Part shown: piece by piece, positions 1 through 20,603 of the stretch | How positions within the stretch are numbered: position 1 is the stretch's first letter | Layout: each line of letters opens with the position of its first letter | Origin: Bacteroidales bacterium | GTDB lineage: Bacteria; Bacteroidota; Bacteroidia; Bacteroidales; F082 | Assembly: GCA_021647205.1 (NCBI GenBank) | Contig: JAKIVD010000001.1 | Location: 248,001 to 312,000, forward strand | DNA: 64,000 bases | Reading direction: 5' to 3' | Position numbers and translations under genes: made by a program | The notes under the pieces: generated by a model | What the model saw: the letters and a program-made list of their open reading frames with translations, nothing else | The model's database searches: none | What the model was told of the DNA's origin: nothing

Positions 1-1498
1 CGGGATACTTTTCCACCACGGCCGAACCGGAGCTTGTCCCTGTGCAGTTTGCGTCTTCCACCTCGAGCAATACGTAGGTGCCCGAGTCGGAAACATGCAG
101 CAGATAGGGCGTGCTGTCGATGCCCGTAACCTGCCAGGTTGTGTTGCCGTTGGAATAAATGATGTCCCAGTCTGCTGTGCCGGTCAGGTCAACGGTCAGT
201 GCGGTGGAGTCGTCACCGCAGAGCGTGTCTCCGCCCGAGATGGCCGCCGTCGGCAGTGCGTGTACCGTCAATTCGGTATCACCATTTGCGGTGGTAAACC
301 CGTCGTCAACTTCAACATGGTAAAGGGTGGAGGTGTCGGGTGACACCAGGGGATTTTCTTCTTCAGAGCTCCAGGGCGGGTTACCGGCAGGGGTGGAGGT
401 CCACGAATAGGTGTAGTCACCCGACCCGCCACCGGCATTGGCAAAAAGTTGCGCCGTATCGCCATTGCAGTTTTCATCGGGCGCTGCCACCGGATTTACA
501 CTCAATGGCCCGCCGGAAACACTTACCTGCACATCGTCGGTGTTCTGACAGGATGTGGAGTCGTCCGTCACCTCCACCTCAAAATAGTTGGAAGTCGTAA
601 GGGTGACCGTCTGCGGATTTTGCACGTTGGGGTCTTCAAGTAGTTCGGGCGGTGTCCAGTAGTAGCTGTAACTTCCCGGGCCACCAAATGCAGCATGCAG
701 GGTGGTGCTGGTTCCGTATGGGATGATGGTATCGTTTCCGGCCTCAGCAACGGGAAGGGTGTTAACGCTTACAGCCAGCTGTACCGAAGAGCCGGTGTCG
801 CAGGGATTGGCACCAGCCACCGTAACCAGACCCGAAACGGCCGTATCAGAATAATTGACTGTGATGGCATTGGTGTTCTGTCCGCCGGCGATGGTGGCAC
901 CGGAAGGCACCGTCCAGAGGTAGGAAGTGGCATTGGGAATGGTATCCGTACTATAGAACACGCCCGGCGATGCCTGGCAAACGACGCTGTCGCCTGTAAT
1001 GTAAGCCGGTGCGCCGATGGCCCCGCAAACGTAGCCGTTGATGTAAAAATCTTCGGTTGGCAGGTCATTCAGTACATCGTAGTTGGCATCGGCATACTCG
1101 CAGGAACCACCGTCATCATACCAGGCAAGGGTGGTCGTGCCTGAAATATAGGTAAACTCGATGTCCATAATAGAACTGCCATCAGGCAGGGAAATACCGG
1201 CGCCGAACCAACCCATCAACAGCCGGTGGAAGCCGTTTCCAAGGTTGTTGTCATTAATAATAAACCAGCCAGGAATACCCGGGTTTTGCGATCCCTGCAC
1301 AAAATTCAGCACCGAATAGTCGTAGTCAAGGGTCAGCGAAATGGCGCCGATGTTGTTAAATCCGGTGACGGTGATGGGGACAATAAGGGAGCCCGTGTCG
1401 GGTTCGTTAATCGTTACAGCTGTGGTAATCGGTGCATCTTGTCCGTAAAAAGTGCTAATGGCGCAAAAAATGAGAGCCGAAAGAAAAAGTACCCGCAT
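1..1498 (-). CDS. Secreted cohesin/PKD-like surface protein, 3' end outside window
   Basis: The frame is open from an ATG at 1498 to the window edge (499 codons), so the C-terminus is missing. The product starts with a signal peptide (MRVLFLSALIFCAISTFYGQ). Residues of about 25-165 form a cohesin-like module (VPITVTGFNNIGAISLTLDY, then GSCEYAD and DFYINGYV) closely resembling the modules of the next gene. PKD/Ig-like beta-sandwich repeats follow, with motifs such as SYLWTVPSGATI and YSWTSTPAG. This is a typical secreted or cell-surface architecture in Bacteroidota. A T9SS sorting domain may lie beyond the edge but cannot be seen. It is the last visible gene of a minus-strand run of three surface proteins. 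The substrate or binding partner is unknown; the cohesin label rests on sequence pattern only. Confidence 0.8.
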   Translation of the reverse strand, partial: MRVLFLSALIFCAISTFYGQDAPITTAVTINEPDTGSLIVPITVTGFNNIGAISLTLDYDYSVLNFVQGSQNPGIPGWFIINDNNLGNGFHRLLMGWFGAGISLPDGSSIMDIEFTYISGTTTLAWYDDGGSCEYADANYDVLNDLPTEDFYINGYVCGAIGAPAYITGDSVVCQASPGVFYSTDTIPNATSYLWTVPSGATIAGGQNTNAITVNYSDTAVSGLVTVAGANPCDTGSSVQLAVSVNTLPVAEAGNDTIIPYGTSTTLHAAFGGPGSYSYYWTPPELLEDPNVQNPQTVTLTTSNYFEVEVTDDSTSCQNTDDVQVSVSGGPLSVNPVAAPDENCNGDTAQLFANAGGGSGDYTYSWTSTPAGNPPWSSEEENPLVSPDTSTLYHVEVDDGFTTANGDTELTVHALPTAAISGGDTLCGDDSTALTVDLTGTADWDIIYSNGNTTWQVTGIDSTPYLLHVSDSGTYVLLEVEDANCTGTSSGSAVVEKYP

Positions 1499-1737
1499 AA
1501 AATTGTTTAAGCTGTTAAAGTTTACCATAAACCATTACAAAAAAAAAGAATCACCAAGCTTTAATAAGAGGGAACCTGCTGTTTTAAAGCGTTTCAAACT
1601 CAAAAAACCTACGCCCCGGAAAATCATGGGGCGCAGGGTGCTGTAAATATTTTGAGAGATTTTCAATTGGTTCCATTGTTAATTTACAGCATATATTTAT
1701 TGTGTTTATTAATCCTGCTTAAACTAATAATCGCTTA

Positions 1738-4587
1738 TCAGGGCCCAATACCTACCACTTTCACATCTGTCTCGATGAAAAGGTTTGCGTTGTCGCCTAC
1801 TTTCAACTTGTAAAAAGTAAGCGTGTCGGGCGGTGGTGTAAAGGTGTAATTAACAGTTGGCCAATCTGTATCGCTTACCAGATTGGTAACCATTGTGTTT
1901 CGGGTAGCCGTTGTAGCTTCAATAAAATCACCGGCTCCTCCTGTCGTACCTTTAATTCCAATAGAAGCCCCTTCGTTGGTGTTGTGCGTACCGGCTGCAG
2001 CAGTACCATAGCAAAACTCGATGGCGTTGGTGGTTTCGTGCAGTTTAAGTTGGAAACTGATGCGTGAAGTAGAAACGGAGTTGTATGTCAGAACATTGTT
2101 CCATTCTACGGTAAACACCCGGTTGGGGGCCGTTCCTGAAGTCAGGTAGGAAATGCCTGAACTTCCGTCTGCCAATAGCTTATCCCACCACGGTGCCAGT
2201 GCATTGGCCGGGTCGGCAGCAAAAAACAGCCGGTCGTTTTCACCGGAGGTGAGGTCATCGCCCGAAAGGTCCATCGAAACCCATCCACTGGTACTGATTC
2301 TCAACTGCGTATAGTTGGTTCCTGCATATTCAAAGCTAAAGCCGATATTGACATCGCTGTGCGCATGGTCTCCTGTAGGGCCGGCCGAACCTCCCGAAAT
2401 GGGTGTCATCAGTGCGGCAGAAGTTGTTAACGAATAGTTCTGCACTTCATCTGCGGGCAGTACTCCTGCCGGAACGTATCCATCCACCGGGCCAATAAAT
2501 TCAACTTCGCCTGTACCAATTTCAAATACACCGGAATTCAACCAGTCGCCACCAACTTTTAACAATCCTGAACCGGCATTTACAAAAGCTTTCCCGGGAT
2601 TGATTGTCATGTCACCGGTAACAGTCATTATTGAACCGGCATCAAAATCAACACTTTTACATTGGTCTCCCAGGGTAAAGTCGCCTGTGTAAACCGGCCA
2701 GAATGACGGAACGGGTGTTGAAGGAATGGATACTGCACTCAGGCTGTTGGGGACCACATTATCGGACCAGTTAGAGGCCGTCATCCAATCTGTTGAAGTC
2801 AGTCCCGTCCAGGTAAAACCGGCGGGTTTCACCAATCCATCAATGTAATAATCTTTAGGTGGCTGGTCGTAAAGCACTGTGAACAAGGGGCCTGCCGTAA
2901 ATTCACAAGACCCTCCATCGTCAAACCATGATAAGGAAGAGGTTCCGCCCGAATAGCTAAAACTCAGGTAAATTAAAACCGTTCCGTTCGCAAGGTCAAC
3001 CGGGTTTGCGTTAAACCACCCTATCAATATCCTGCCGGGATTGGTGGCTCCTTCCGTAAAATTGACAGCAATATCGGGATGTGGGGATGCACCAAGATAA
3101 GTCAATACCCCCGGGTCATAATCAAGGGTCAGCGACAAGGAACTAATGTCAGTAAAGTCCCAGACCCTGAGCGGGACAGTGATTTGGGTTCCGGATACAA
3201 CGCTCATTGAATCGGCTTTGATTTGCGGCGACACCTGACCTGCGACCAGTCCGTCGAAATAATAGTCTCCAGAGGGTTCATCATAAAGTGAGTAGAACTG
3301 AGCATCTCCATAGTCGCAGGCAGTGCCGTCCGCTAACCAAACCAATGTTGTGGTTCCTGACACATAGGTAAATTCAATATCTGTAATCGCATCCATATCT
3401 GCTAATGAAACAGCAGTACCAAAATATGAAATGACAACCTTTCCGGTAGTACCATTGACCTGGTTGCTCAGGAATAGATTGTTGGCAAAAGCAGCATTGG
3501 GTGTGTGCCCGACAAAATTTATCACCGTTGCATCATATTCAAATGTCAAGGCAACGGCACCTATATTTTGAAAATCAACGACAGTAACTGGTACATTTAT
3601 TGGACCCGCTTGTGCAGTTGTAATCCCGGGGAGGTAAGTGCCGGGCGCTAATTGTTCAGCAACAATGCCGTCGAAATAGTAGTCTTCGTATGGCTTGTCG
3701 TACAAAGTGGTGTAAGCTGAATCACCGTATTCACATGCCGTACCATCGGTTACCCAGTTCAGCAGGGAATGGTTTCCGGAAAAAGGGACAGGTGCATAAT
3801 TAAAATGAAGATCGACCAGGGTAGTTCCATCGGCCAAGGTCTCCGGTATAAAATCAGGAGGAGCAGAAATCCAACTAATAACTATTTTGTACTTACCTCC
3901 GGCAGACGGCGAATTGCCAACAATCATGGCTGCCCCAAAGTTGCTGTGTGGAGTGCTTCCGGTAAAAGTCAGGATATTCGGGTCATATTCCAAAGTCAAA
4001 GCAATAGCTCCGATACCCCAGAAATTTTCTACCGTGATGGGCACATCTATCGGACCGGCCACAACATCCCCAATTTCAGGTGCCATGGTAGTTGGGGCAA
4101 CATGCGATGTAACAAACCCATCAACGTAATAATCGGCTGTGGGTGTGTCATTAAGCGGAACCAGGACATCATCGGCATACTCGCAGTTACTTCCGCCATT
4201 ACCGGCATTGTCCCATGAAAGCGAAGTTGATCCTGAAATATAACTAAACTCAACTTCTGCTAACTGGCTTTCGTCCGGTAAAGTTATGGCTCCAGCAACA
4301 GTTGTCCAACTGATGACAAGCTGTCCCGGGACTGATCCATCAATAGTCATTCCCGAAAAAGCCGGACTGGGTGTGGCACTTACATAGCTGATCACGGAAG
4401 GGTTGTAATCCAGCGTGAGTGTTATGCTCCCGATATTGTCAAAATTGCTGACTGTAACCGGAACATTGATAGTGCCCGCCGAAGCGTCAAGGACTTTTCC
4501 TGCAGTAGTGAGCGGCGCATTCTGTGAAAATCCTGACCTACCGATCAGAAACAATAAGCTCAAGAAAAATATATGTGTAATTTTCAT
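1738..4587 (-). CDS. Secreted protein with four tandem cohesin-like modules
   Basis: 949 residues with a signal peptide (cleavage near GFSQN). Four repeats of about 145 residues follow (roughly 25-160, 165-310, 313-450, 455-595). Each has the cohesin pattern (VPVTV.NF..IGA..LTLEYDP, then VISW and DGT.L..L.F.Y) and ends with a signature CEY/CDY plus D..P..DYY.DG. The fourth copy has CEFTAGP. From about 600 comes a WTGLTSTDWMTASNWSDN segment common in Bacteroidota surface proteins, then a beta-rich tail. Cohesins bind dockerins in cellulosomes; here the partner is unknown, although the adjacent giant protein has a dockerin-like segment. The protein stops at ETDVKVVGIGP without a recognisable T9SS sorting domain, so it may be truncated or anchored in another way. 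Confidence 0.85.
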   Translation of the reverse strand: MKITHIFFLSLLFLIGRSGFSQNAPLTTAGKVLDASAGTINVPVTVSNFDNIGSITLTLDYNPSVISYVSATPSPAFSGMTIDGSVPGQLVISWTTVAGAITLPDESQLAEVEFSYISGSTSLSWDNAGNGGSNCEYADDVLVPLNDTPTADYYVDGFVTSHVAPTTMAPEIGDVVAGPIDVPITVENFWGIGAIALTLEYDPNILTFTGSTPHSNFGAAMIVGNSPSAGGKYKIVISWISAPPDFIPETLADGTTLVDLHFNYAPVPFSGNHSLLNWVTDGTACEYGDSAYTTLYDKPYEDYYFDGIVAEQLAPGTYLPGITTAQAGPINVPVTVVDFQNIGAVALTFEYDATVINFVGHTPNAAFANNLFLSNQVNGTTGKVVISYFGTAVSLADMDAITDIEFTYVSGTTTLVWLADGTACDYGDAQFYSLYDEPSGDYYFDGLVAGQVSPQIKADSMSVVSGTQITVPLRVWDFTDISSLSLTLDYDPGVLTYLGASPHPDIAVNFTEGATNPGRILIGWFNANPVDLANGTVLIYLSFSYSGGTSSLSWFDDGGSCEFTAGPLFTVLYDQPPKDYYIDGLVKPAGFTWTGLTSTDWMTASNWSDNVVPNSLSAVSIPSTPVPSFWPVYTGDFTLGDQCKSVDFDAGSIMTVTGDMTINPGKAFVNAGSGLLKVGGDWLNSGVFEIGTGEVEFIGPVDGYVPAGVLPADEVQNYSLTTSAALMTPISGGSAGPTGDHAHSDVNIGFSFEYAGTNYTQLRISTSGWVSMDLSGDDLTSGENDRLFFAADPANALAPWWDKLLADGSSGISYLTSGTAPNRVFTVEWNNVLTYNSVSTSRISFQLKLHETTNAIEFCYGTAAAGTHNTNEGASIGIKGTTGGAGDFIEATTATRNTMVTNLVSDTDWPTVNYTFTPPPDTLTFYKLKVGDNANLFIETDVKVVGIGP

Positions 4588-4622
4588 AGTTTTAACATAT
4601 TAATTGTCATTTATTTAACCCT

Positions 4623-4644
4623 GGGTGTACCATTCGGCACACCC
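4623..4644 (-). terminator. Possible terminator hairpin after the giant surface gene
   Basis: Inverted repeat GGGTGT/ACACCC with a 10-nt loop, lying 17 nt beyond the stop of the giant gene and upstream of the next gene. There is no clear T tract, so it could be an attenuator or a processing hairpin instead. Confidence 0.4.
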
Positions 4645-4660
4645 GGTAAATGTTAAATAA

Positions 4661-7600
4661 TCAGTAACTATTAATAACTATTCGAATGGTACGTGAAACT
4701 ACTTGTCCGTTGGCCCTGACCCGAATATTTGCGGTGTAAACACCGGCATTGTTACCTAAGGCATGGAACTTGACAGTATGTTCACCCCTTTCTTGCAACT
4801 CGTCAACCAGTGTTTTCACAAGGGAACCGTACATATTGTAAATCTCCAGTTTCACTTCACCATCCACAGGAATATTGTAATTGATAAATGTAAATTCGTT
4901 GAACGGATTGGGGAAACTTTCAAGTGTTGTCCCTTTTAGCAGTTCAAGTTCTCCGATTCCCGTCACATCGTATTCTACGGTGTAGGTGCTCAGGACAACA
5001 TTTCTGATAACGTTGTATTGCGCGTCAGCCAATTCGTTGAGCGGGCTTGGACGGAGCGCAACCTCAATGATGTCACCACTGCCGAAGTTGTCTGTTGTAC
5101 GGAGTTTTAGCATGAGCAGGATATTTCCATCGGCATAATTAAAAGCCTGAAGGGAATTCCATCCAATCCTCAATTCATCTCCATCAACGTTAAAATCAAG
5201 TGCGCCTGCATCAGAAGGGATATTGTTGTTGATTATTAAGACATCCTCCACTGTAAGCAGGTTGGATGGAATATCAAGAATCAATGACAAAGCCGCTACC
5301 TGCATTGAAGCAGTAACTTTGATGGGGAGTTCAAATTCCATTCCGGCACCAGCAAAGATGGAACCATCGTAAGACAATACGAGGTCCGAATCAAATAGCG
5401 CTTTACCGCCCGGGTTTGTATTGCTTGCATCGAAGTCACCGACGCACAAACCATAGAACCCCTGGCTAACATCTGCCCCACTGACCACAACCTGGTTGGT
5501 TGAGGTCGGCGGGTTGGCACTGGACACATCGGGCTGTTTCCAGAAGGTCCATGCACTCCTGTCGAAGGCTGTTCCGTAAACAAAGTAGCCCTGGATGCGT
5601 CCGGCATCGGTGGCATTGATGCTGCTGCCGCTGCCAAAGGCGACGTCGCCTGCATTCCACCTGACATGCTCGATGTTAGACGGACTTGTCCACCACAGAT
5701 TCACCTGTCCGGCGTCAAGCGAGTTGATGCCGCCCACAGGCGCACTGGTTGTTACATCGATGGTGTAAACGCCATCCGGGACGAAGGTGAATTCGTAGTA
5801 ACCCGTTGCATCCGTTGTTGTTGAAGCAATAAGCGTCGGGCCATCCATGAGGTCCAGCGAAAGGCCGTTCAATGGCGTGTTGGCACCGTTGTGATAGGTA
5901 AAGTAGCCGCTGACGGTGTATCCGGCCGGATTGATGGTAACATTCAATGCATCGGAATTCGCAACACAACCGCTTATCAAATTGAGTTCGGTAACCATAA
6001 CGGTTCCTGTTCCGGGAGTTCCGGGCCACAATACCGTAATGGAACTGGTATTCTGACCACTTTGGATACTACCCCCGGTAACAGTCCATGTGTAGGCATG
6101 GAGGGGATTGGTGGTAGTTGAATAGGTTTCGGTTGTGTTAATCACAACAGATGCCGGCCCGACAACTTCCGGAGTAGGCAGCGCGATGAGCGTTACATCT
6201 TCCGAAACGGTTTCGGAGCAGAAAGTTCCTGCTGCATATTCGGTTACGGTAAGTGTTCCCGGAGAAACATCAAACCAGTCCACAGTGATTGAATTGGTAC
6301 CTTGCCCGGAAGCAATGGTGCCACCGTTTACATTCCATAGGTACGAATTGCCCGAAACCAGCGGTGTTGAGTAAATCTCACCGGTAGCGCCTGCACAAAC
6401 TTCAAAGTCGCCTGTAATTACAGGATCGGGCAGTGCATTGATGGTAACGTCATAAATACAATAATAATCGTTTCCAAAAACATCAGTGATGGTCCAGGTT
6501 ACGGTTGTTGTTCCGGTAGCAAAAACATGTCCATCTAAACTGGCCGATGCATTTTGGTCGTTGGTAATTGTGGTTGGACGACATTGGTCAACAACGGTCG
6601 GATCGAATTCAGTACCCACTGTGGTGTAGGTGTCTGTCGCTGTTTCATCGGCACAACGTACCTGGTCGCTCAGGCAAGTGATGTTGGGGTCGGGCAATAC
6701 ATAATAGTCGGTCATGGATGCATCATCCCACCATTGGAAGAAATCCACATCATCAGAAACAAGGTTGCCTAATCCACAAGTATTGTTTGGATTGTGGTAG
6801 GGGCCGGTTTCGTCACCCCACCAGTTAGCAGAAGCATCAACGTTTTCGCCGTCACTAATTACACCGCGTGTATGACCACTGATTGTATTGTGATGGATAT
6901 CAGTGCCCGTTGACAACCTGCCGGTAGCAGAGGTAAATACCCTGATCCCGTCAGCCTGAGTACCACCTGTTATTGTGTTATTGATAATGCTGGTATTCTG
7001 ACTTCCACCCAGACGTATTCCGGATTCCGTATTGCTGTTAATCGTATTGGCGTTAATGGTGTTATCATCTGCGTGATACAACTCAATGCCATGATCGAAA
7101 TTGTTCTGAACGGTATTGCTAATAAGGGTGTTTTCACTTGCTATTTCACCCAGGTAGATACCAACTTCAGAAACTGATATTATATTTCCATCGACGGTAT
7201 TTAGCCTACAACTTGTTGTATTTGCCGTATAGTAGTCGAGCAAAACACCATAAGATGTATTAAGTGTGATGATGTTGTCCTTAACAATATTGTTCGATGC
7301 ATCATCTAAAAGCGCAATACCAAACTGGTTGTTTGTGACCATGTTGTCATGTATATTACAATCATTTACACTAAACAGTGCGATCCCTGCATAATTGCCG
7401 ACACCCGTGTTTTGTATCGTAAATCCATGCATTGTGACATTATCAGCCGTAATTGTAACAACAGTTCCCAAATTATTACCATCAATTATTGGAGAAGGAG
7501 AAGCGGCGTTGGCTAGTGTCAGGTATTCTTTGTCCACCGTAATATTTTCAAGGAAAGTACCATTTCCAACAGTGATCACCTCCGGGTTGGCCAGGGTTGG

Positions 7601-10600
7601 CGTGGCATCGTCAATGGCATCCTGAATGCTACAATAGAAAGTGCCTTTGGTAACATTCTGAATCGGCAATGGTGATGACGGAACTCCCGTCGTCGTTGTC
7701 CACCAAGGCATGAAATCAACTGGGCCAATTACATCACTACCCAAACCGCAAGTATTATACGGATCGTTATACGGGCCTGAAGCATCGCCATACCAGTTGT
7801 TTTCTGCATTAATTGATAGAGCAGCATCGTTTTGAATTGCATATGTGGCAATGTTAATAAATTGATTATTATTAATTGTTACTGCCCCACAGCCAACATC
7901 CATATTACCAATCCAAATACCCTCTTCACAGTTTTTGAATGTACTGTTTGTTATGGTTGATGTCGGGCAATTTGGTGGAAAACCATAAATTGCCATTGCA
8001 TAGTATTGGTCTTCGAAAACATTGTTGTCCCAACTTACGTTTAATCCTGAATATTGATAACATCCCACACCTCCTGGAGATGTGTTATCTTCGGAATATA
8101 CAAAATTGTCATAAAAACTGATTGCACCGGGATTGTTTCCCCAACATGCTAAACCATATGCACGGTAATCTGAATGAACAGTACTGTAAGTTGGATTATT
8201 ATAAACTGTATTTTCATAAGCTTCGCCTTGACCATTGTCCCAGTAACCAATGCCAGCGAACATCCAACCGGCATCAATCTCATATGTGCCACCATAAAGA
8301 GTATTCAAGTATGCATCAAAATCAGGCCCGGCCGGAGTAAATGTAGATTGACTTGTTCCGCCAATATAAATTGCCGATTGTGCTCCTGAACGAACAATGT
8401 TATTACTTGCATAACCAGTTGCGCGCCCTAACACTTTAATGGCGTCACCTCCGTCATTCTCAAGCATATTAGTCACAATGTTGTTATCAATCACTACATT
8501 TGTATAATACTCCAACGTTCCTATTGTACCCGGAGTAGTTTCCACATGATCAACCAATATAGCTGTACTTCTGCTATATGTAGGATCAGTATAGCTACCC
8601 AGAACATCCCAAAATACCTGATTGTCCAAATCAACAGTAAAGTTCTTGAATGTTACATTAGAACTTGCAATCCTTACAATCGGAATATTGGCTCCCCGAT
8701 GTCCAGCATATCTGCTGTTCGGTGATTTGCTGCCATAGTGGTCATAGATTACCATAGTTGATGGAACCGGTGTTTGTATAATGGTTGTAGTAGGATCTGC
8801 GCCAATGAGTGAAATCTCTTTTTCAATGTTTACTTGTTCAATATAAGTCCCGGCGGCAACTTCTATATAATACCCATCCAGGGTTGTTGATGCGTCAATA
8901 CCCTCCTGGATTTTCATGTGGCTGCTAACGAGTGTACCTGTAGTGGAAGGATCATTATCGTAAACAAGTACTGGTCCGACTCCATCACATGAATAGTCAT
9001 TTGAAGTATCCCACCAGTACGATGTTCCAGTTGTATTGTTTACAATCAGGTAAGGCAGGAACTGTACATCACCAGAAACACTTGCGGCAACATCACCTGC
9101 ATTTTCACTGCCCCACCAGTTACAAGTGGCCTCAATATTATCTGTTGACAGGTTGTTGATACCAAGATTTGTTCCTGTTTCAACAAAAGAGTTGTTGTTA
9201 AATACATTTCCGGTATAAGATCCGCCGGTATTCTGAAGGATTACGCTGCCCAGTGTGTTATCATGAATACTATTATTGGTAAAACTATTAGCTGTTGATG
9301 TTTTACCTGTATAGCTTTCCATCATTACACCATACTTGTATTTATCAGATAAACCACCTGCACCATTATTATAAATTTCATTGCTGTTAATATCGCATGA
9401 GGTGGTGCTGACAATTTTCAATCCATTACGTGCATTATCAAAAATCATGTTTCCGGAAACTGTAAGAGCTGTAACTGCATCCTGGAAATTATGACTAAGC
9501 AATTGCAAACCATATTTCGTATTGGAATGAATCTCGTTATTATTAACCACTACACCTGTAACTGAACTTGCAACATTAACTGCAGATGCAATATAGATAC
9601 CATAGCTCATGTTTTGGTAACACTCATTGTTTGCAACAGAACCGTTAGTGATTGACTGGCTACCTGAAGTATATAAAGATATACCAGCAATATTATCTGT
9701 GCCGTCACCATTATTTGAACAATAATTATATTCGACAACCGGGGCAGTTACGTTACTCATAAATATACCATTTGCTGAGTTTAGATCAAGCCAGTTATAA
9801 CTAATATTAATGCCTGCCAATTGGCTTGCACCAACTACACCAATGCCACCATATAGGTTAACATTACTACCGGCGGCATTAATTACTTTAAATCCGTTAA
9901 CAGTTACATTAGCTGCTGTTATATACACACCATAATTACCACCATTGGCATCAATGGTAGAAATATTGGTAGTCCAGGCAGTGCCACGGGGATCGACATT
10001 GTACTGTGCGCCGCGTAATTCCAAGCTTTTATCAACGATGAGATTTTCTGTATAGATTCCATCATTCACATTCACTGTCCATCCTGCAATTGCAGCATCA
10101 ATACCACGTTGGATGGATGGCGTTGTTTCGGCACCTGCAAAACTGTTTACTGTTACATAATCGTTATTTGGAATGACTGTGACAAAGCCACGAGAGCTTT
10201 CATCGATTTTATGGATAATCGCATCTTCAATCGTAAATAACTCAGCAAGTGTGGCTGAACCTGAAGCAACACCCTCATATGTATTTCCACTGGAAGCATC
10301 TATGTCCATATCTGGGTCCACAAGAATCGCATAGCTGTAATTGCTCAAGGTATTGTTGTCAAGATCAACTAACGAGCCATTGTTCGTATCGTCAAATACT
10401 TTAATGCCATAATCAACATTTGTAATACTGTTGTTATAGAACTTTGTAAGTGCATTGTTGCCAGTATTTCTAAATTGAAGGCCAATTACATCTGCCCAAT
10501 ATGGATCGGTCAATGCGATTACTCCATCAACGTTATTGCCTGTGATAAATTCAACTTCAGGTGCAGCACCTGTTCCTGATGTTCCATGTGTCCTCACATG

Positions 10601-13600
10601 AATACCTATCCAATCACCACCACTACCTCTGGTTAAGTTATCATTGGCCGCATCTATATCTTCAGGAACAGTCAATCCAGTATTGTTTACTATTTCCCCA
10701 ACTCCTATGGTGCCTGGTCCTTTACCACCAGCAGGGGGTAAAACAGCAGATATTGAATTATTCGTATATGTCCATTTACCAGAACCAAGACTCGCATAAT
10801 TATGATAGATGCCGTTTACATATCCTTCAAAGGCATTGTTTTGAACAGTTCCAACATTCGGTTGTCCGTAGGGTTGAACTTGTATAGCAGCTGCACAATC
10901 TTCTACAGTATTTCCAGATACTGAACCACCTATTCCCTGTATGTAAATAGTGTGGTACAAACCATGATTATTTATACAATAGTTATTTGTAACTGTAGTG
11001 ACACGAGGAGTTAAGGCAGGATATGGTTCACCGTGCATCCATATTGAGATGTATGTAAATCCATCAACAATATTGTTGGAAACCTGGATGTTTGTTGCTT
11101 CCACACTTATAATTCCTGTAAGGTCTTCTCCGGCAACACCACCTGCATCACTTATTGTAAATCCATCAATCAAAACATCGTCTGCATTACTATATATGAT
11201 GGCGTCCCATCCCGTTGTGCCGACGGGGAATTGAATAATTGCTTCCGCAACCCGACTGCTACTTGTGCCAGATATGCCATAATTTGGGCCGCGCAATGCT
11301 ATAGATTTATAAATATATATTGTTTCTTCATAAGTCCCGGCGGCAACTTCTATATAATACCCATCCAGGGTTGTTGATGCGTCAATACCCTCCTGGATTG
11401 TCATGTGGCTGCTAACGAGTGTGCCTGTAGTGGAAGGATCATTATCGTAAACAAGTACGGGTCCGACTCCATCACATGAATAGTCATTTGAAATATCCCA
11501 CCAGTACGATGTTCCAGTTGTATTGTTTACAATCAGGTAAGGCAGGAACTGTACATCACCAGAAACACTTGCGGCAACATCACCTGCATTTTCACTGCCC
11601 CACCAGTTACAAGTGGCCTCAATATTATCTGTTGACAGGTTGTTGATACCAAGATTTGTTCCTGTTTCAACAAAAGAGTTGTTGTTAAATACATTTCCGA
11701 CATAAGATCCGCCGGTATTCTGAAGGATTACGCTGCCCAGTGTGTTATCATGAATACTATTATTGGTAAAACTATTAGCTGTTGATGTTTTACCTGTATA
11801 GCTTTCCATCATTACACCATACTTGTATTTATCAGATGAACCACCTGCACCATTATTATAAATTTCATTGCTGTTAATATCGCATGAGGTGGTGCTGACA
11901 ATTTTCAGTCCATTACGTGCATTATCATAAATCATGTTTCCGGAAACTGTAAGAGCTGTAACTGCATCCTGGAAATTATGACTAAGCAATTGCAAACCAT
12001 ATTTCGTATTGGAATGAATCTTGTTATTATTAACCACTACACCTGTAACTGAACTTGCAACATTAACTGCAGATGCAATATAGATACCATAGCTCATGTT
12101 TTGGTAACACTCATTGTTTGCAACAGAACCGTTAGTGATTGACTGGCTACCTGAAGTATATAAAGATATACCAGCAATATTATCTGTGCCGTCACCATTA
12201 TTTGAACAATAATTGTAGTCGACAACCGGGGCAGTTACATTACTCATAAATATACCATTTGCTGAGTTTTGATCAAGCCAGTTATAACTAATATTAATAC
12301 CTGCCAATTGGCTTGCGCCAATTACACCAATACCACCATATAAGTTAACAGTACTACCGGCGGCATTAATTACTTTAAATCCGTTAACAGTTACATCAGC
12401 TGCTGTTATATACACACCATAATTACCACCATTGGCATCAATGGTAGAAATATTGGTAGTCCAGGCAGTGCCACGGGGATCGACATTGTACTGTGCGCCG
12501 CGTAATTCCAAGCTTTTATCAACGGTAACATTTTCAGTATAGGTACCGGCAGCCACTACCACATAATAACCGTTTATGGTTGTGGTTGCGTCAATACCCT
12601 CCTGGATTGTCATGTGGCTGCTAACGAGTGTGCCTGTAGTGGAAGGATCATTATCGTAAACAAGTACTGGTCCGACTCCATCACATGAATTGGGTACGGG
12701 TTGGAAACCAGGCGTGCTTCCATCATCATCTGTTCCGTCCGTCAGGAAGGGCAGGAATTGGACATTCCCGTTCATACCGGCGGCAATTACGCCGGCATCA
12801 ATTGAGCCCCACCAGTTACAGGTAAGATCAATACTTAAAGTTCCTGCTCCGCTTGCATTTGCATTAGTTGTACTGCCGGTGATGTGGTTATTGTTTGCAG
12901 TAGTTGCGTTTGTGTACGAAGCTTCGGCTTCGCAGTTAAAGGCTTCAGTAGTACTGTTGTTGATATAGTTATTAGTAAAGGTAGCAGAACAATCAGAAGA
13001 GCCCCAACCAAAAAGACTTGTCGTAGTATAAACCCCTGTTTCTGCATTATTAACAGTATTTCGGCTAAACAGAGGCGTTCCTCCGACTTGCCCCGAGGCG
13101 CATAAACCTACGGAAACACCGCTAACTGTGTTTTCATACACCTCATTGTTAAGCCGGGATGCAAACACCCAGATTCCATACGAACCGGCTGTACCATTGC
13201 TTACTGTATTGTAGCGGATAGTGTCTGCCGTTGAACCGGCAGCATCGCCGTTATTATCTGTGTGAATACCACTGCCACAATTTGTAACCGTATTGTATTC
13301 GTAAGTAACACCTTTTGAGTGATTGGACACAATGCCATCGTTTGAATTACTGACGCTGTTGTATGAGAAAACCCCGGTACCGCTCCAGTTCATGATTGGT
13401 ATGGATTGTGCTTCACCTGCAACATTGGAAACAGTATTATTTGAAATATCAAAATCGCCACCTGTTGATGCATAAATACCACGCAAGTAGATATTTTGCA
13501 TTGTGATATGATTTACATTTAGATTGGTAAAGGAGCCAGCCGTAAAATCCTGTATAATACCGTTTCGTGCATCAATATCTGCACCGTTAACAACGGTTCC

Positions 13601-15034
13601 GCTCGTAAGACTTGGATTGTCCCCATCAATTGTCATATACTGAATAGTTACATCATCCGCCTGGATAAGCATCAGATTGCTTGCGCCGGCAGGTAATGAA
13701 CCTGAACTTCCGGGCATGGGAGCCGATAGTGTTGGCATAAGAACTACACCGGTTTCACTTTCTCCGGTAATTGTAATTCCCCTGTCAACAACAAGGTTTT
13801 CAATATAGGTTCCATTTGAAACAGCAATATTCTCGACACTAGTTGTACTCGCATCATCAATCGCTTCCTGGATGGTGCAATAGTAAATTCCGGTGGTTGT
13901 ATTTTGTACCAGACCTTCAACAGTAACCGCGTAAGCTGATCCTGTTCCTGCACATGAATTACCATCAGTATAGGTGGCAGTTACACTATGTGTGGTTCCC
14001 GGTGAATTGTCCCAGGTTATATCAATTGATTCGGTAGTTGAAGTACCCGTTCCTCCTACAATTGTCCACGAATAAGCTGTCATGCCTGTTTCTGTGGTAT
14101 AGGTTTCGGTTGCATTGGCACATATTGTTGTTGGCCCGCTAATTGTTGGAACCGGTAAGGCTTTAACATCAACATTTAAAGTTGTTGTATTCGAAGTACA
14201 TGTATTTCCGTCATCGAAATAAACACTTACAGTCCCTGCACCAGTTGCGCTGGTCCAGTCCACTGTAATCTGGTAAGTTCCTGAACCGCTGCTTATTGTT
14301 CCATTTGTAACCGTCCAGTTATAAGCGCTCATTCCTGCATCGGTTGTATACGTTTCGTTGGAGTTGAAACAAGGTGCAGTTTCTCCGGTTAATGCCGGGT
14401 TCACAGCAGCATTTACCGTCCATTTATACAAATTAGAAGCATCGCAGCCCCTGCCATCAGGGTCAGAACGGGTAGCCAATATTTGAACAATATCAGTCCC
14501 CGAAAGACCGGTTGTTGAAATTGCGGTTCCAGGAGTGTATGCACTCCAGCTTGTACCTCCGTCGGTACTGTATTCGTAGCTGTCAGTACAACTTGCAACC
14601 CCGCCGCTTCCTGCTGTTGCAATGCTGGCAGAAACATCTGTTCCGGCACATACAGCAGACTGGTTGGGTGATTTTGTCATGGTGGGTGCTGTGGGCTGTA
14701 CAACAACATTTGTTGTAAAATTCACAAAGGGTGAATAATCCGTCGCATCGAAGGCTGAATAAGATGTATTGCCCAATGCGGGTGTAACCAGATCAAAAGT
14801 TATCGTCCCGCCATTTCCTGGCAAAGTTTGAAGCAGCGCCCTCGAATCGGCTTGAGTCAAATTGTAGGTATGAGTGGCATCTGTGTTTGTAATAGAGATT
14901 GTAAACGAACCTCCTTCACACAAATCAATCTGATTGCTTCCGTCCCAGGCGGGGCTGGAGCTGACAACCTCTTGTCCAAACACATTGACGGCAAAAAATG
15001 CCATCAAAGCAAGTAAAAAAGTAATTTTTTTCAT
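4661..15034 (-). CDS. Giant T9SS-exported beta-helix protein with dockerin-like and cohesin-like segments
   Basis: 3457 residues with a signal peptide (MKKITFLLALMAFFAVNVFGQ). Order of parts: PKD/Ig-like domains (about 20-370); a very long right-handed parallel beta-helix region (about 380-2780) rich in NN.I..N...GI.. repeats (NosD/PbH1 type) and divided by CNWWGS junctions; a HYR-like domain with paired cysteines; two PKD-like domains; a carboxypeptidase-regulatory-like beta-sandwich (YTVSGYFTYHNG); a degenerate dockerin-like pair (INSLDAGQV and SINATDAGRIQGYFVYG); a cohesin-like segment (FELPIKVTASMQVAALSLIL); and a T9SS type A sorting domain (FPNPFNEF, ending VVSRTIRIVINSY). It is probably surface-exposed or extracellular. 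Parallel beta-helices of this kind often bind or cleave polysaccharide, but no catalytic residues can be assigned. The internal duplication is listed separately. Confidence 0.9.
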   Translation of the reverse strand: MKKITFLLALMAFFAVNVFGQEVVSSSPAWDGSNQIDLCEGGSFTISITNTDATHTYNLTQADSRALLQTLPGNGGTITFDLVTPALGNTSYSAFDATDYSPFVNFTTNVVVQPTAPTMTKSPNQSAVCAGTDVSASIATAGSGGVASCTDSYEYSTDGGTSWSAYTPGTAISTTGLSGTDIVQILATRSDPDGRGCDASNLYKWTVNAAVNPALTGETAPCFNSNETYTTDAGMSAYNWTVTNGTISSGSGTYQITVDWTSATGAGTVSVYFDDGNTCTSNTTTLNVDVKALPVPTISGPTTICANATETYTTETGMTAYSWTIVGGTGTSTTESIDITWDNSPGTTHSVTATYTDGNSCAGTGSAYAVTVEGLVQNTTTGIYYCTIQEAIDDASTTSVENIAVSNGTYIENLVVDRGITITGESETGVVLMPTLSAPMPGSSGSLPAGASNLMLIQADDVTIQYMTIDGDNPSLTSGTVVNGADIDARNGIIQDFTAGSFTNLNVNHITMQNIYLRGIYASTGGDFDISNNTVSNVAGEAQSIPIMNWSGTGVFSYNSVSNSNDGIVSNHSKGVTYEYNTVTNCGSGIHTDNNGDAAGSTADTIRYNTVSNGTAGSYGIWVFASRLNNEVYENTVSGVSVGLCASGQVGGTPLFSRNTVNNAETGVYTTTSLFGWGSSDCSATFTNNYINNSTTEAFNCEAEASYTNATTANNNHITGSTTNANASGAGTLSIDLTCNWWGSIDAGVIAAGMNGNVQFLPFLTDGTDDDGSTPGFQPVPNSCDGVGPVLVYDNDPSTTGTLVSSHMTIQEGIDATTTINGYYVVVAAGTYTENVTVDKSLELRGAQYNVDPRGTAWTTNISTIDANGGNYGVYITAADVTVNGFKVINAAGSTVNLYGGIGVIGASQLAGINISYNWLDQNSANGIFMSNVTAPVVDYNYCSNNGDGTDNIAGISLYTSGSQSITNGSVANNECYQNMSYGIYIASAVNVASSVTGVVVNNNKIHSNTKYGLQLLSHNFQDAVTALTVSGNMIYDNARNGLKIVSTTSCDINSNEIYNNGAGGSSDKYKYGVMMESYTGKTSTANSFTNNSIHDNTLGSVILQNTGGSYVGNVFNNNSFVETGTNLGINNLSTDNIEATCNWWGSENAGDVAASVSGDVQFLPYLIVNNTTGTSYWWDISNDYSCDGVGPVLVYDNDPSTTGTLVSSHMTIQEGIDASTTLDGYYIEVAAGTYEETIYIYKSIALRGPNYGISGTSSSRVAEAIIQFPVGTTGWDAIIYSNADDVLIDGFTISDAGGVAGEDLTGIISVEATNIQVSNNIVDGFTYISIWMHGEPYPALTPRVTTVTNNYCINNHGLYHTIYIQGIGGSVSGNTVEDCAAAIQVQPYGQPNVGTVQNNAFEGYVNGIYHNYASLGSGKWTYTNNSISAVLPPAGGKGPGTIGVGEIVNNTGLTVPEDIDAANDNLTRGSGGDWIGIHVRTHGTSGTGAAPEVEFITGNNVDGVIALTDPYWADVIGLQFRNTGNNALTKFYNNSITNVDYGIKVFDDTNNGSLVDLDNNTLSNYSYAILVDPDMDIDASSGNTYEGVASGSATLAELFTIEDAIIHKIDESSRGFVTVIPNNDYVTVNSFAGAETTPSIQRGIDAAIAGWTVNVNDGIYTENLIVDKSLELRGAQYNVDPRGTAWTTNISTIDANGGNYGVYITAANVTVNGFKVINAAGSNVNLYGGIGVVGASQLAGINISYNWLDLNSANGIFMSNVTAPVVEYNYCSNNGDGTDNIAGISLYTSGSQSITNGSVANNECYQNMSYGIYIASAVNVASSVTGVVVNNNEIHSNTKYGLQLLSHNFQDAVTALTVSGNMIFDNARNGLKIVSTTSCDINSNEIYNNGAGGLSDKYKYGVMMESYTGKTSTANSFTNNSIHDNTLGSVILQNTGGSYTGNVFNNNSFVETGTNLGINNLSTDNIEATCNWWGSENAGDVAASVSGDVQFLPYLIVNNTTGTSYWWDTSNDYSCDGVGPVLVYDNDPSTTGTLVSSHMKIQEGIDASTTLDGYYIEVAAGTYIEQVNIEKEISLIGADPTTTIIQTPVPSTMVIYDHYGSKSPNSRYAGHRGANIPIVRIASSNVTFKNFTVDLDNQVFWDVLGSYTDPTYSRSTAILVDHVETTPGTIGTLEYYTNVVIDNNIVTNMLENDGGDAIKVLGRATGYASNNIVRSGAQSAIYIGGTSQSTFTPAGPDFDAYLNTLYGGTYEIDAGWMFAGIGYWDNGQGEAYENTVYNNPTYSTVHSDYRAYGLACWGNNPGAISFYDNFVYSEDNTSPGGVGCYQYSGLNVSWDNNVFEDQYYAMAIYGFPPNCPTSTITNSTFKNCEEGIWIGNMDVGCGAVTINNNQFINIATYAIQNDAALSINAENNWYGDASGPYNDPYNTCGLGSDVIGPVDFMPWWTTTTGVPSSPLPIQNVTKGTFYCSIQDAIDDATPTLANPEVITVGNGTFLENITVDKEYLTLANAASPSPIIDGNNLGTVVTITADNVTMHGFTIQNTGVGNYAGIALFSVNDCNIHDNMVTNNQFGIALLDDASNNIVKDNIITLNTSYGVLLDYYTANTTSCRLNTVDGNIISVSEVGIYLGEIASENTLISNTVQNNFDHGIELYHADDNTINANTINSNTESGIRLGGSQNTSIINNTITGGTQADGIRVFTSATGRLSTGTDIHHNTISGHTRGVISDGENVDASANWWGDETGPYHNPNNTCGLGNLVSDDVDFFQWWDDASMTDYYVLPDPNITCLSDQVRCADETATDTYTTVGTEFDPTVVDQCRPTTITNDQNASASLDGHVFATGTTTVTWTITDVFGNDYYCIYDVTINALPDPVITGDFEVCAGATGEIYSTPLVSGNSYLWNVNGGTIASGQGTNSITVDWFDVSPGTLTVTEYAAGTFCSETVSEDVTLIALPTPEVVGPASVVINTTETYSTTTNPLHAYTWTVTGGSIQSGQNTSSITVLWPGTPGTGTVMVTELNLISGCVANSDALNVTINPAGYTVSGYFTYHNGANTPLNGLSLDLMDGPTLIASTTTDATGYYEFTFVPDGVYTIDVTTSAPVGGINSLDAGQVNLWWTSPSNIEHVRWNAGDVAFGSGSSINATDAGRIQGYFVYGTAFDRSAWTFWKQPDVSSANPPTSTNQVVVSGADVSQGFYGLCVGDFDASNTNPGGKALFDSDLVLSYDGSIFAGAGMEFELPIKVTASMQVAALSLILDIPSNLLTVEDVLIINNNIPSDAGALDFNVDGDELRIGWNSLQAFNYADGNILLMLKLRTTDNFGSGDIIEVALRPSPLNELADAQYNVIRNVVLSTYTVEYDVTGIGELELLKGTTLESFPNPFNEFTFINYNIPVDGEVKLEIYNMYGSLVKTLVDELQERGEHTVKFHALGNNAGVYTANIRVRANGQVVSRTIRIVINSY
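8843..10037. repeat. 1195-bp internal duplication, copy A
   Basis: This segment is almost identical to 11330-12524. Both copies run from ATAAGTCCCGGCGGC to CCAAGCTTTTATCAACG and have exactly the same length, with only scattered single-base differences. It lies in frame inside the giant beta-helix gene and encodes the block reading LELRGAQYNVDPRGTAW to STTLDGYYIEV. Confidence 0.9.
11330..12524. repeat. 1195-bp internal duplication, copy B
   Basis: Second copy of the 8843-10037 block, same orientation, starting 2487 bp downstream. Differences include AATTGTAGTCGAC versus AATTATATTCGAC and a few transitions. The near-identity implies recent duplication or ongoing homogenisation. Confidence 0.9.
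12588..12690. repeat. Short third copy of the duplicated block
   Basis: 103 bp starting GCGTCAATACCCTCCTGG and ending CATCACATGAAT, matching 11379-11481 and the corresponding part of copy A. It encodes the conserved junction with VLVYDNDPSTTGTLVSSH and IQEGID, which introduces each helix section. Confidence 0.85.
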
Positions 15035-15703: not shown

Positions 15704-17092
15704 CTAAAGCACAGGTGATTTTTGGATATTAATATTCAATCTTTGAAGTTTCCTGTCAAGTGCCTGGCGGGAAATGTGGAGCAACTTTGCTGTTTTGGAC
15801 TTATTGTAATTGGTTTGCTGGAGTGCAAGCGTAATCGTATTTCTTTCTATTTGCTCTAAATGATAAGTTGTGCCAGAAGCATTTTTATGAATAAAAGAAG
15901 TAAACGACTGCTGCAAGATATCTGGAAAATGATTGATGCATAACTTGTCACCGTTGCACAGAATAACAGCTTTCTCAATCATGTGTTTAAGTTCCCTGAC
16001 ATTGCCGGGGAAGTCATGTTGAATTAAATGTTCTATCACGCTTTTATCAACCCGTCGTATTTTTTTCCGGAGTTGACCTGAAAATTGCTTTATAAAATAA
16101 TCAAGCAAGAGGGGTATGTCATCTATACGTTCTCTGAGCGGTGGAATGTGAATAACAAATGAGTTCAGCCGGTAGAATAAATCAGATCTAAACTTTTTTT
16201 CTTCCACCAACTGTCGGAGGTCATAATTAGTAGCCGCAATAATACGGACATCAACACGGTTCTCCGCAGTTTCGCCCAGCCTTGAGATCATTTTATTATC
16301 GAGCACCCTGAGGAACTTAGGTTGGTGGTGGACCTTCAGGTCGGCAATTTCATCAAGAAAAAGGGTTCCTTTATCTGCCACTTCAAACAAGCCCTTTTTA
16401 TGATTGATTGCACTTGTGAAAGAACCCTTCTTGTGACCAAAGAATTCGCTTTCGAACAACTCATCCGGAATTGTTGAACAGTTGACTGAATGCAGGGCTT
16501 GGCCTGCACGTTCGCTCAAATAATGTATTCCTCGTGCAACTACTTCTTTTCCTGTTCCGCTTTCTCCGGTAATAAGTACCGTTGTATGGCTTGATTTGGC
16601 CACGCTGTGCATGAGCTGGACAACGGTTTTCATTATTGAGTTTTTGCTGATAAAGGAAAAACCGATTTTTTCTTCCAGTTCTTTGGAAATAAGAGAGTAG
16701 CCGTTATTCGAAACTTTGAGGTTTCTGTTTAACTGGATGTGGTTTTTTGTCTTTTCAATGGTTCTTTGAATATCTTTGAGCTTGAAAGGTTTATTAAAGA
16801 AATCAATGGCACCTTCTTTCATTGCTTTGATGACGCTATCCATGTCGCCATGTCCTGTGATCATGATCACCTCAATATGAGGAAATGATGTTTTGACTTC
16901 TTTGAGGACTTGCAGCCCATCCATTTCCGGGAGCCTGATGTCAAGGATGGCAAGGTCGATTGGGTACTTATTAAGCACCTGAAATGCTTCTGAAGGGCGG
17001 GCTGCCGGAAATATGTCGTTACCTGCAGTACCGAGAAACTCATTCAATTCATCCCTGAACCCTTGTTCATCATCGAGAATTAATATATTCAT
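15704..17092 (-). CDS. Sigma-54-dependent response regulator, NtrC family
   Basis: 462 residues. An N-terminal receiver has the acidic pair DDE and the phospho-acceptor Asp51 (LAILDIRLPEMDG). A central AAA+ sigma-54 activation domain has Walker A GESGTGKE and GTLFLDEIADL. A C-terminal Fis-type helix-turn-helix follows (TAKLLHISRQALDRKLQRLNI). The sigma-54 contact loop normally reading GAFTGA is GSFTSA here, a departure from consensus. It should activate sigma-54 promoters after phosphorylation by a cognate kinase, most likely the large kinase encoded upstream on the same strand. Its targets may include the surface-protein genes further downstream; this is inferred from position. A stretch of 276 nt separates it from the kinase gene. 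Confidence 0.93.
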   Translation of the reverse strand: MNILILDDEQGFRDELNEFLGTAGNDIFPAARPSEAFQVLNKYPIDLAILDIRLPEMDGLQVLKEVKTSFPHIEVIMITGHGDMDSVIKAMKEGAIDFFNKPFKLKDIQRTIEKTKNHIQLNRNLKVSNNGYSLISKELEEKIGFSFISKNSIMKTVVQLMHSVAKSSHTTVLITGESGTGKEVVARGIHYLSERAGQALHSVNCSTIPDELFESEFFGHKKGSFTSAINHKKGLFEVADKGTLFLDEIADLKVHHQPKFLRVLDNKMISRLGETAENRVDVRIIAATNYDLRQLVEEKKFRSDLFYRLNSFVIHIPPLRERIDDIPLLLDYFIKQFSGQLRKKIRRVDKSVIEHLIQHDFPGNVRELKHMIEKAVILCNGDKLCINHFPDILQQSFTSFIHKNASGTTYHLEQIERNTITLALQQTNYNKSKTAKLLHISRQALDRKLQRLNINIQKSPVL

Positions 17093-17368
17093 AATGCAAT
17101 AGATTGGTCAAATCTAGTGTCTTGCTTTCTTAAAAAATGAAGAGACATTTCAGCTGGTTTCCCAAAACTTAGAAATCAAATCCGGCAACAAGCGAGCAGT
17201 TTAGGCTCAATGAAGTTGTCAAAAACAGGATTCTATCGGTCAGTAACGTGGTTATACTGCTTCAAACTGTTGTTTCATGAAAGCAATAAACAAATAAACG
17301 TAAAATACAAGTATGCAGGCTCGCTGAAAACCACTAAAAAAAAAAATAGCTGAAAACCACCAGTCTCC

Positions 17369-20347: not shown

Positions 20348-20603
20348 GGTATTTGGTGTATATCCTGAAGCAAACTTATGAAATAAAAGCAATAAAGGTG
20401 TTTATGCCCGGCGGTATCGACGAACCAACCCGAGCAGTTTCGATTTGTTTTACCCGGAAACATGAGTAAGGTGAGCAGTCGGTTTGTTTCCTCCGGAATT
20501 GTGCCTGAGCAATCGGTTATGGATATTTGAGGTGTAGCCTTTTTACAGCCCTGTTGTCTTTCAGCGAGTATAGTACGTAAACAAAATACATGACAAAAAT
20601 GTT

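Follow-up and report, generated by a model that had tools for sequence, protein, structure and literature searches.

Whether cohesin-like and dockerin-like modules encoded side by side in a Bacteroidales genome could build an assembly on the cell surface is the question raised by the window, a stretch of 64,000 nucleotides (contig JAKIVD010000001.1, positions 248,001 to 312,000). It contains three genes that run in the same direction on the minus strand, the giant orf C being followed by orf B and orf A (Table 1). The initial annotation saw in them cohesins, a degenerate dockerin and T9SS export, and proposed a surface assembly formed in a cellulosome-like manner.

Domain content of the three genes

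The four cohesin-like modules initially noted in a single protein are the four Pfam cohesins of orf B, which scores 93.1 bits against PF00963 (cut-off of 24.1) and corresponds to the multi-cohesin scaffold of a cellulosome. Orf A is partial solely because the window ends within it (the full protein has 669 amino acids), and the one cohesin ascribed to it was recovered by an iterated profile. Orf A itself falls below the PF00963 cut-off and its homologue in another locus (L053) passes it with 28.3 bits; orf A is 40% identical over 439 amino acids (E 7e-86) to the cohesin protein downstream of the relative in that locus.

HMM searches, which the initial annotation had suggested as a check, support it through PF00963 on orf B and TIGR04183 on orfs A and C but are silent on the C-terminal end of orf C, where Pfam matched neither a dockerin (PF00404) nor a cohesin (PF00963). 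Structure prediction had been suggested as well. The predicted model of orf C residues 3036-3457 (422 residues, built from 33 aligned sequences) has a mean pLDDT of 89.9 and a pTM of 0.74, and the best single-domain PDB matches of its cohesin segment in Foldseek are cohesins over the whole domain. The model thus supports a cohesin fold for the segment before the T9SS tail, as first proposed. The dockerin of orf C is aligned with 32 homologues, of which several, unlike orf C, score above the Pfam threshold for Dockerin_1, and a profile of the CarboxypepD_reg-like (reg) and dockerin modules retrieves solved dockerins by sequence (4dh2_B, 7.6e-8; 2ccl_B, 1.6e-7). The Foldseek matches of the X-dockerin model are dominated by the CnaB-like module and hence are no test of the dockerin fold. 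This CarboxypepD_reg/CnaB-like module directly precedes the dockerin, the place held by the X module in X-dockerin pairs.

The module order reg, dockerin, cohesin and T9SS tail recurs in relatives of orf C (family search and 84,980 species genomes), and all relatives with this order in the named-genome scan are MAGs of Bacteroidales or other Bacteroidota. A short protein of this type (about 410 amino acids) is encoded in locus L015 (2145-3377) and would be a handy minimal protein for experiments; many genomes of the family encode relatives of comparable size. The beta-helix region of orf C contains direct repeats (8843-10055 and 11330-12542, 1213 bp each, 97.9% identical) that mark a recent duplication of some 400 residues within the protein.

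T9SS type A sorting domains are present on orf A (TIGR04183, 45.0 bits against a cut-off of 23) and orf C, and the genome encodes SprA. The surface anchoring typical of a cellulosome is therefore represented by orfs A and C, and the T9SS export first proposed for the locus applies to these two proteins but not to orf B. Searches of orf B with Pfam and the TIGR04183 profile gave no T9SS sorting domain; its known export signal is the signal peptide alone, and its passage out of the cell is presumed. A frameshift that would have truncated orf B was ruled out: a homologue from the same genus (68% identical over 385 amino acids) stops at the same C-terminus (KVVG[IV]GP), indicating that orf B is complete. 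Directly upstream of orf C, on the same strand (15704-20392), lie a sigma-54-type response regulator and a PAS/GAF histidine kinase, which may possibly regulate the cohesin/dockerin locus.

Table 1. Features of the three genes, with positions in the window
Feature	Position	Strand	Content or evidence
Orf A	2..1528	-	Cut by window edge; signal peptide, one cohesin, PKD_6, T9SS type A tail beyond window
Cohesin of orf A	1055..1438	-	Iterated cohesin profile, E 7e-26 (window sequences possibly among its training set); Pfam sub-threshold, 17.6 bits (PF00963 cut-off 24.1)
Orf B	1738..4587	-	949 aa; signal peptide, four cohesins, C-terminal half without known fold, no sorting domain
Cohesin B1 (orf B)	4135..4521	-	Pfam and iterated cohesin profile
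Cohesin B2 (orf B)	3685..4101	-	Iterated cohesin profile
Cohesin B3 (orf B)	3283..3648	-	Iterated cohesin profile
Cohesin B4 (orf B)	2869..3231	-	Iterated cohesin profile
Giant orf C	4661..15034	-	3457 aa; signal peptide, PKD-like domains, parallel beta-helix (NosD-like), X-like module, permuted dockerin, cohesin, T9SS tail
Beta-helix region of orf C	6815..13867 (approximate)	-	Pfam Beta_helix and NosD, 12 and 11 stretches
CarboxypepD_reg/CnaB-like (X-like) module of orf C	5744..5920	-	Sub-threshold Pfam match; Foldseek to SdrD B domains, CnaB2 and X-dockerin 4wi0
Permuted dockerin module of orf C	5423..5734	-	Homologue alignment, PDB profile matches; own-genome profile match, E 2e-28 (window's own sequence included in profile)
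Second half of calcium loop 1, GGINSLD (loop positions 6-12)	5714..5734	-	Alignment
Calcium loop 2, DVAFGSGSSINATD	5606..5647	-	Two residues longer than usual, ligand-poor
First half of calcium loop 1, GDFDAS at module end (positions 1-5 after glycine)	5423..5440	-	Alignment; model pLDDT >90
Cohesin of orf C	4967..5374	-	Model, Foldseek, iterated cohesin profile
T9SS type A sorting domain of orf C	4664..4915	-	TIGR04183, 23.8 bits (cut-off 23); genome search, 30.3 bits (cut-off 27)

Chain order of the dockerin

Type I dockerins are arranged as loop 1 (12 residues), helix, linker, loop 2 and helix. In orf C and its 32 homologues the module opens in the middle of loop 1 (xGGVNATDA, positions 6-12) and continues with a helix, loop 2 and a second helix; after an insert of 30-50 residues it closes with GDVNGS, a glycine followed by positions 1-5 of loop 1. 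The two pieces, which in orf C are GGINSLD and GDFDAS about 100 residues apart, join without gap or overlap, and their register equals that of loop 2 of the same proteins. The first half of loop 1 stands at the end of the module in 33/33 sequences, among which the canonical run of loop 1, helix, loop 2 and helix was not encountered. As judged from sequence, the orf C dockerin is a circularly permuted type I dockerin with the break inside calcium loop 1. The segment first described as a dockerin-like pair belongs to a real dockerin but covers its second calcium-loop/helix unit only; the partner of this unit lies beyond that segment, as GGINSLDAGQVNLWW upstream and GDFDAS downstream.

Both halves of the loop are strongly conserved. 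In the 33-sequence alignment, part of which was gathered by a scan using the C-terminal motif, the C-terminal piece has D at position 1, N or D at position 3 and S or T at position 5 in every sequence, and the N-terminal piece has N at position 9 in 31 sequences and D at position 12 in all 33; D12 of loop 1, D12 of loop 2 and the G-D of the C-terminal piece are invariant, as would be expected. As a check on this use of the motif, 56 different dockerins from a single MAG were collected by profile without the motif scan (two of them cut fragments), and these have D1-(N/D)3-(S/T/N)5 in 54/56 and G6-N9-D12 in 55/56 cases. When the two pieces are joined, loop 1 of orf C reads D-F-D-A-S followed by G-G-I-N-S-L-D, with D, D, S, N and D at positions 1, 3, 5, 9 and 12. 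The ligand set is complete only in this reading, whereas loop 2 (DVAFGSGSSINATD) is degenerate, so that the lack of several calcium ligands pointed out initially holds for loop 2 and not for loop 1. The idea of a decaying, degenerate dockerin was dropped once the homologues had been aligned.

Comparison with solved structures points the same way. When GDVNGS is moved to the front, the rejoined profile matches 1ohz_B, its best cellulosomal match, end to end (positions 1-56 to 2-57, 45.0 bits), whereas the control profile in native order gives a partial match of 37.5 bits. The top PDB match of both orders is 8x39_A, a serine-protease chain with dockerin-like repeats (46.7 bits rejoined and 39.4 native), and for 4dh2_B there is no gain from rejoining (29.1 versus 29.2 bits). 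Chains that end with a permuted dockerin stop 0-4 residues past the C-terminal motif in nearly all cases, which argues that the motif is part of the dockerin module, and it is modelled confidently within the module (pLDDT >90). Sequence and model confidence together suggest that a single calcium ion is enclosed by both half-loops.

Among the 150 Pfam Dockerin_1 matches listed for the order, 106 start at model positions 1-5 and 44 at positions 8-11, with none at 6-7; the early-start examples that were read directly end shortly after the last helix and lack GDVNGS. Other genomes of the order (G175, G220, G441, G247 and G350) have dockerins of canonical order in abundance, and thus two dockerin types coexist in the order. 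No account of a permuted dockerin was found in the open-access literature, outside which most subscription journals lie; the type is widespread in Bacteroidota and apparently undescribed so far.

Dockerins and cohesins across genomes

The genome to which the window belongs encodes five dockerin proteins by profile search, two of them with weak dockerin matches. Four have a cohesin directly after the dockerin and one has three cohesins and a terminal dockerin; all five contain cohesins and none has a recognised catalytic domain. The three-cohesin protein (contig C12, locus L013, 9090-10862) ends in an X-like/dockerin pair without a sorting tail and lies within a cluster of five cohesin-bearing genes, four of which have T9SS tails. 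It looks like an adaptor. Two other candidates were rejected: a sub-threshold dockerin match in a 316-amino-acid protein of different architecture (contig C31), probably due to chance, and a protein of contig C42 that has only a CarboxypepD_reg-like domain.

A cohesin gene directly follows the dockerin-cohesin gene in 22 of the 37 cases with enough downstream sequence, the window included, and in 16 of these the following gene is cohesin-only; six of the cases come from closely related rumen genomes. Of 393 genomes of the order, 91 have the permuted dockerin, 94 a Pfam cohesin and 71 both. A cohesin is accordingly present in 71/91 genomes with the dockerin and in 23/302 of the others (Fisher p 3e-39, uncorrected for relatedness). 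The permuted dockerin also extends beyond the order, to other genomes of the phylum. The cellulosome-like assembly initially envisaged is therefore supported by cohesins and a dockerin in adjacent genes, by gene order and by co-occurrence, but its enzyme-carrying side is missing from this genome; as no dockerin-bearing enzyme is encoded there, the term cellulosome would overstate the case.

Dockerin-bearing catalytic subunits are found in a relative, the MAG RA.bin97 (G266), which encodes 97 permuted dockerins (loci L097 and L103-L151), a number similar to the counts in cellulosome producers. Many of its chains end in a dockerin, a cohesin and a T9SS tail, and others end at the dockerin without a tail. 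Among these tailless proteins are C25 (gingipain-type) and M14 peptidases, a metallophosphatase and a heparinase II/III-like protein. A gene for three cohesins and a T9SS tail lies directly after a dockerin-cohesin gene in RA.bin97, and in another of its loci (L085) there are four dockerin-terminal genes in a row. It is somewhat more probable than not that permuted dockerins form a separate class in Bacteroidota, wired to T9SS-displayed cohesins, and that in species like RA.bin97, where they are attached to peptidases, a phosphatase and adhesins, they organise a full enzyme-bearing surface complex within a phylum that is usually described as without cellulosome parts.

Proposed assembly and comparison with known systems

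The three genes of the window probably encode a T9SS-exported assembly on the cell surface whose proteins are joined through cohesin-dockerin pairing, with a circularly permuted type I dockerin as one side of the pair. In this assembly, T9SS would export the orf A and orf C proteins and anchor both at the surface through their tails. Orf B with four cohesins and orf A with one, encoded just downstream of orf C, would supply five further cohesins, and the dockerin of orf C would dock into those of orf B or orf A. The cohesin of orf C itself could receive a dockerin from elsewhere, such as the one on the three-cohesin adaptor, so that large adhesin-like proteins would be linked into chains or branches. 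The dockerin chain starts in the middle of calcium loop 1 and ends with the missing first half of the loop, and the halves would close on one calcium ion.

The main rival to assembly in trans is a latch in cis, whereby the orf C dockerin binds the cohesin that follows it in the same chain and stiffens or protects the end near the T9SS tail, docking in trans being minor. Only about 12 residues separate the two modules, their pairing is maintained throughout the family, and the pTM of the 422-residue model gives a weak hint of a fixed arrangement. However, the linker has a pLDDT of 56, suggesting mobility; there are also chains that finish with this dockerin and have no cohesin after it, and in many genomes the next gene is a cohesin gene of its own, so that the latch is considered unlikely. 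Alternatively, the modules could be calcium-stabilised adhesin spacers that serve stability or display without binding each other specifically. Non-cellulosomal cohesins and dockerins are known from many organisms, and the dockerin proteins of the window's genome, all with cohesins and none with a recognised enzyme domain, would suit such a role. Gene adjacency and the co-occurrence of dockerin and cohesin in genomes speak against it, as do the RA.bin97 enzymes that have a dockerin alone and no T9SS tail, and this reading is held to be quite improbable.

The permutation itself could also be questioned, in that half of loop 1 may have been lost and the terminal GDVNGS may be an unrelated calcium or turn motif. 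The halves are joined by sequence logic only, and some short-type homologues have a weaker C-terminal motif (e.g., GDVEGEW). Yet positions 1-5 and 6-12 fit without gap or overlap and are both nearly invariant, the rejoined profile aligns over its full length with solved dockerins, and the motif is confidently folded with the module in the model, which makes this explanation very unlikely.

A permuted dockerin class would give bacteria with a T9SS a modular means of hanging enzymes and adhesins on one another. It would also add a new cohesin-dockerin pair to those available for protein engineering, and nature provides in this dockerin a clean test of whether two distant chain ends can close a calcium loop. 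Polysaccharide degraders of the Bacteroidota have been said to lack cellulosome components (PMC5831590, PMC6247017), although counts for rumen bins of Bacteroidetes do include cohesins and dockerins (PMC6071333). Some under-counting would be accounted for by a class of permuted dockerins that Pfam recognises only partly.

A T9SS-anchored scaffoldin, together with a C25 dockerin peptidase, has been proposed in another phylum, the Cloacimonadota, for Ca. Stygibacter (PMC8542988). As far as the part of that paper on Ca. Stygibacter goes, its scaffoldin likewise has tandem cohesins and a C-terminal surface-attachment domain, and its dockerins are on enzymes that include a C25 gingipain-like peptidase, as in RA.bin97; scaffoldin and dockerin enzymes are separate there, and that section describes neither a permutation nor dockerin-cohesin tandems. 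The non-cellulosomal cohesin of Archaeoglobus fulgidus (2xdh) is among the nearest solved cohesins to that of orf C (23% identity, TM-score of 0.64), but it is archaeal and without T9SS. The protein from which it comes also has a dockerin in cis.

The X-dockerin pair of cellulosomal scaffoldins (4wi0_B, 4u3s_B and 2b59_B) resembles the end of orf C in having an Ig-like X module directly before the dockerin, and the family profile spans both modules of 2b59_B with matched spacing, if weakly (E 0.03). The front module in orf C is nearer to CnaB/SdrD-B and CarboxypepD_reg domains. With the clostridial type I dockerin and cohesin (PF00404 and PF00963) the system shares two calcium-loop/helix units in equal register and a predicted cohesin fold (Foldseek TM-scores, target-normalised, of 0.72 to 6kgc_A and 0.74 to 4uyp_A). 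It differs in a chain order that is, on sequence grounds, permuted inside calcium loop 1, in the strand-containing insert of 30-50 residues before the last motif, in the dockerin-cohesin tandem within one chain, and in the T9SS tail that stands in place of the Gram-positive anchoring of the clostridial system.
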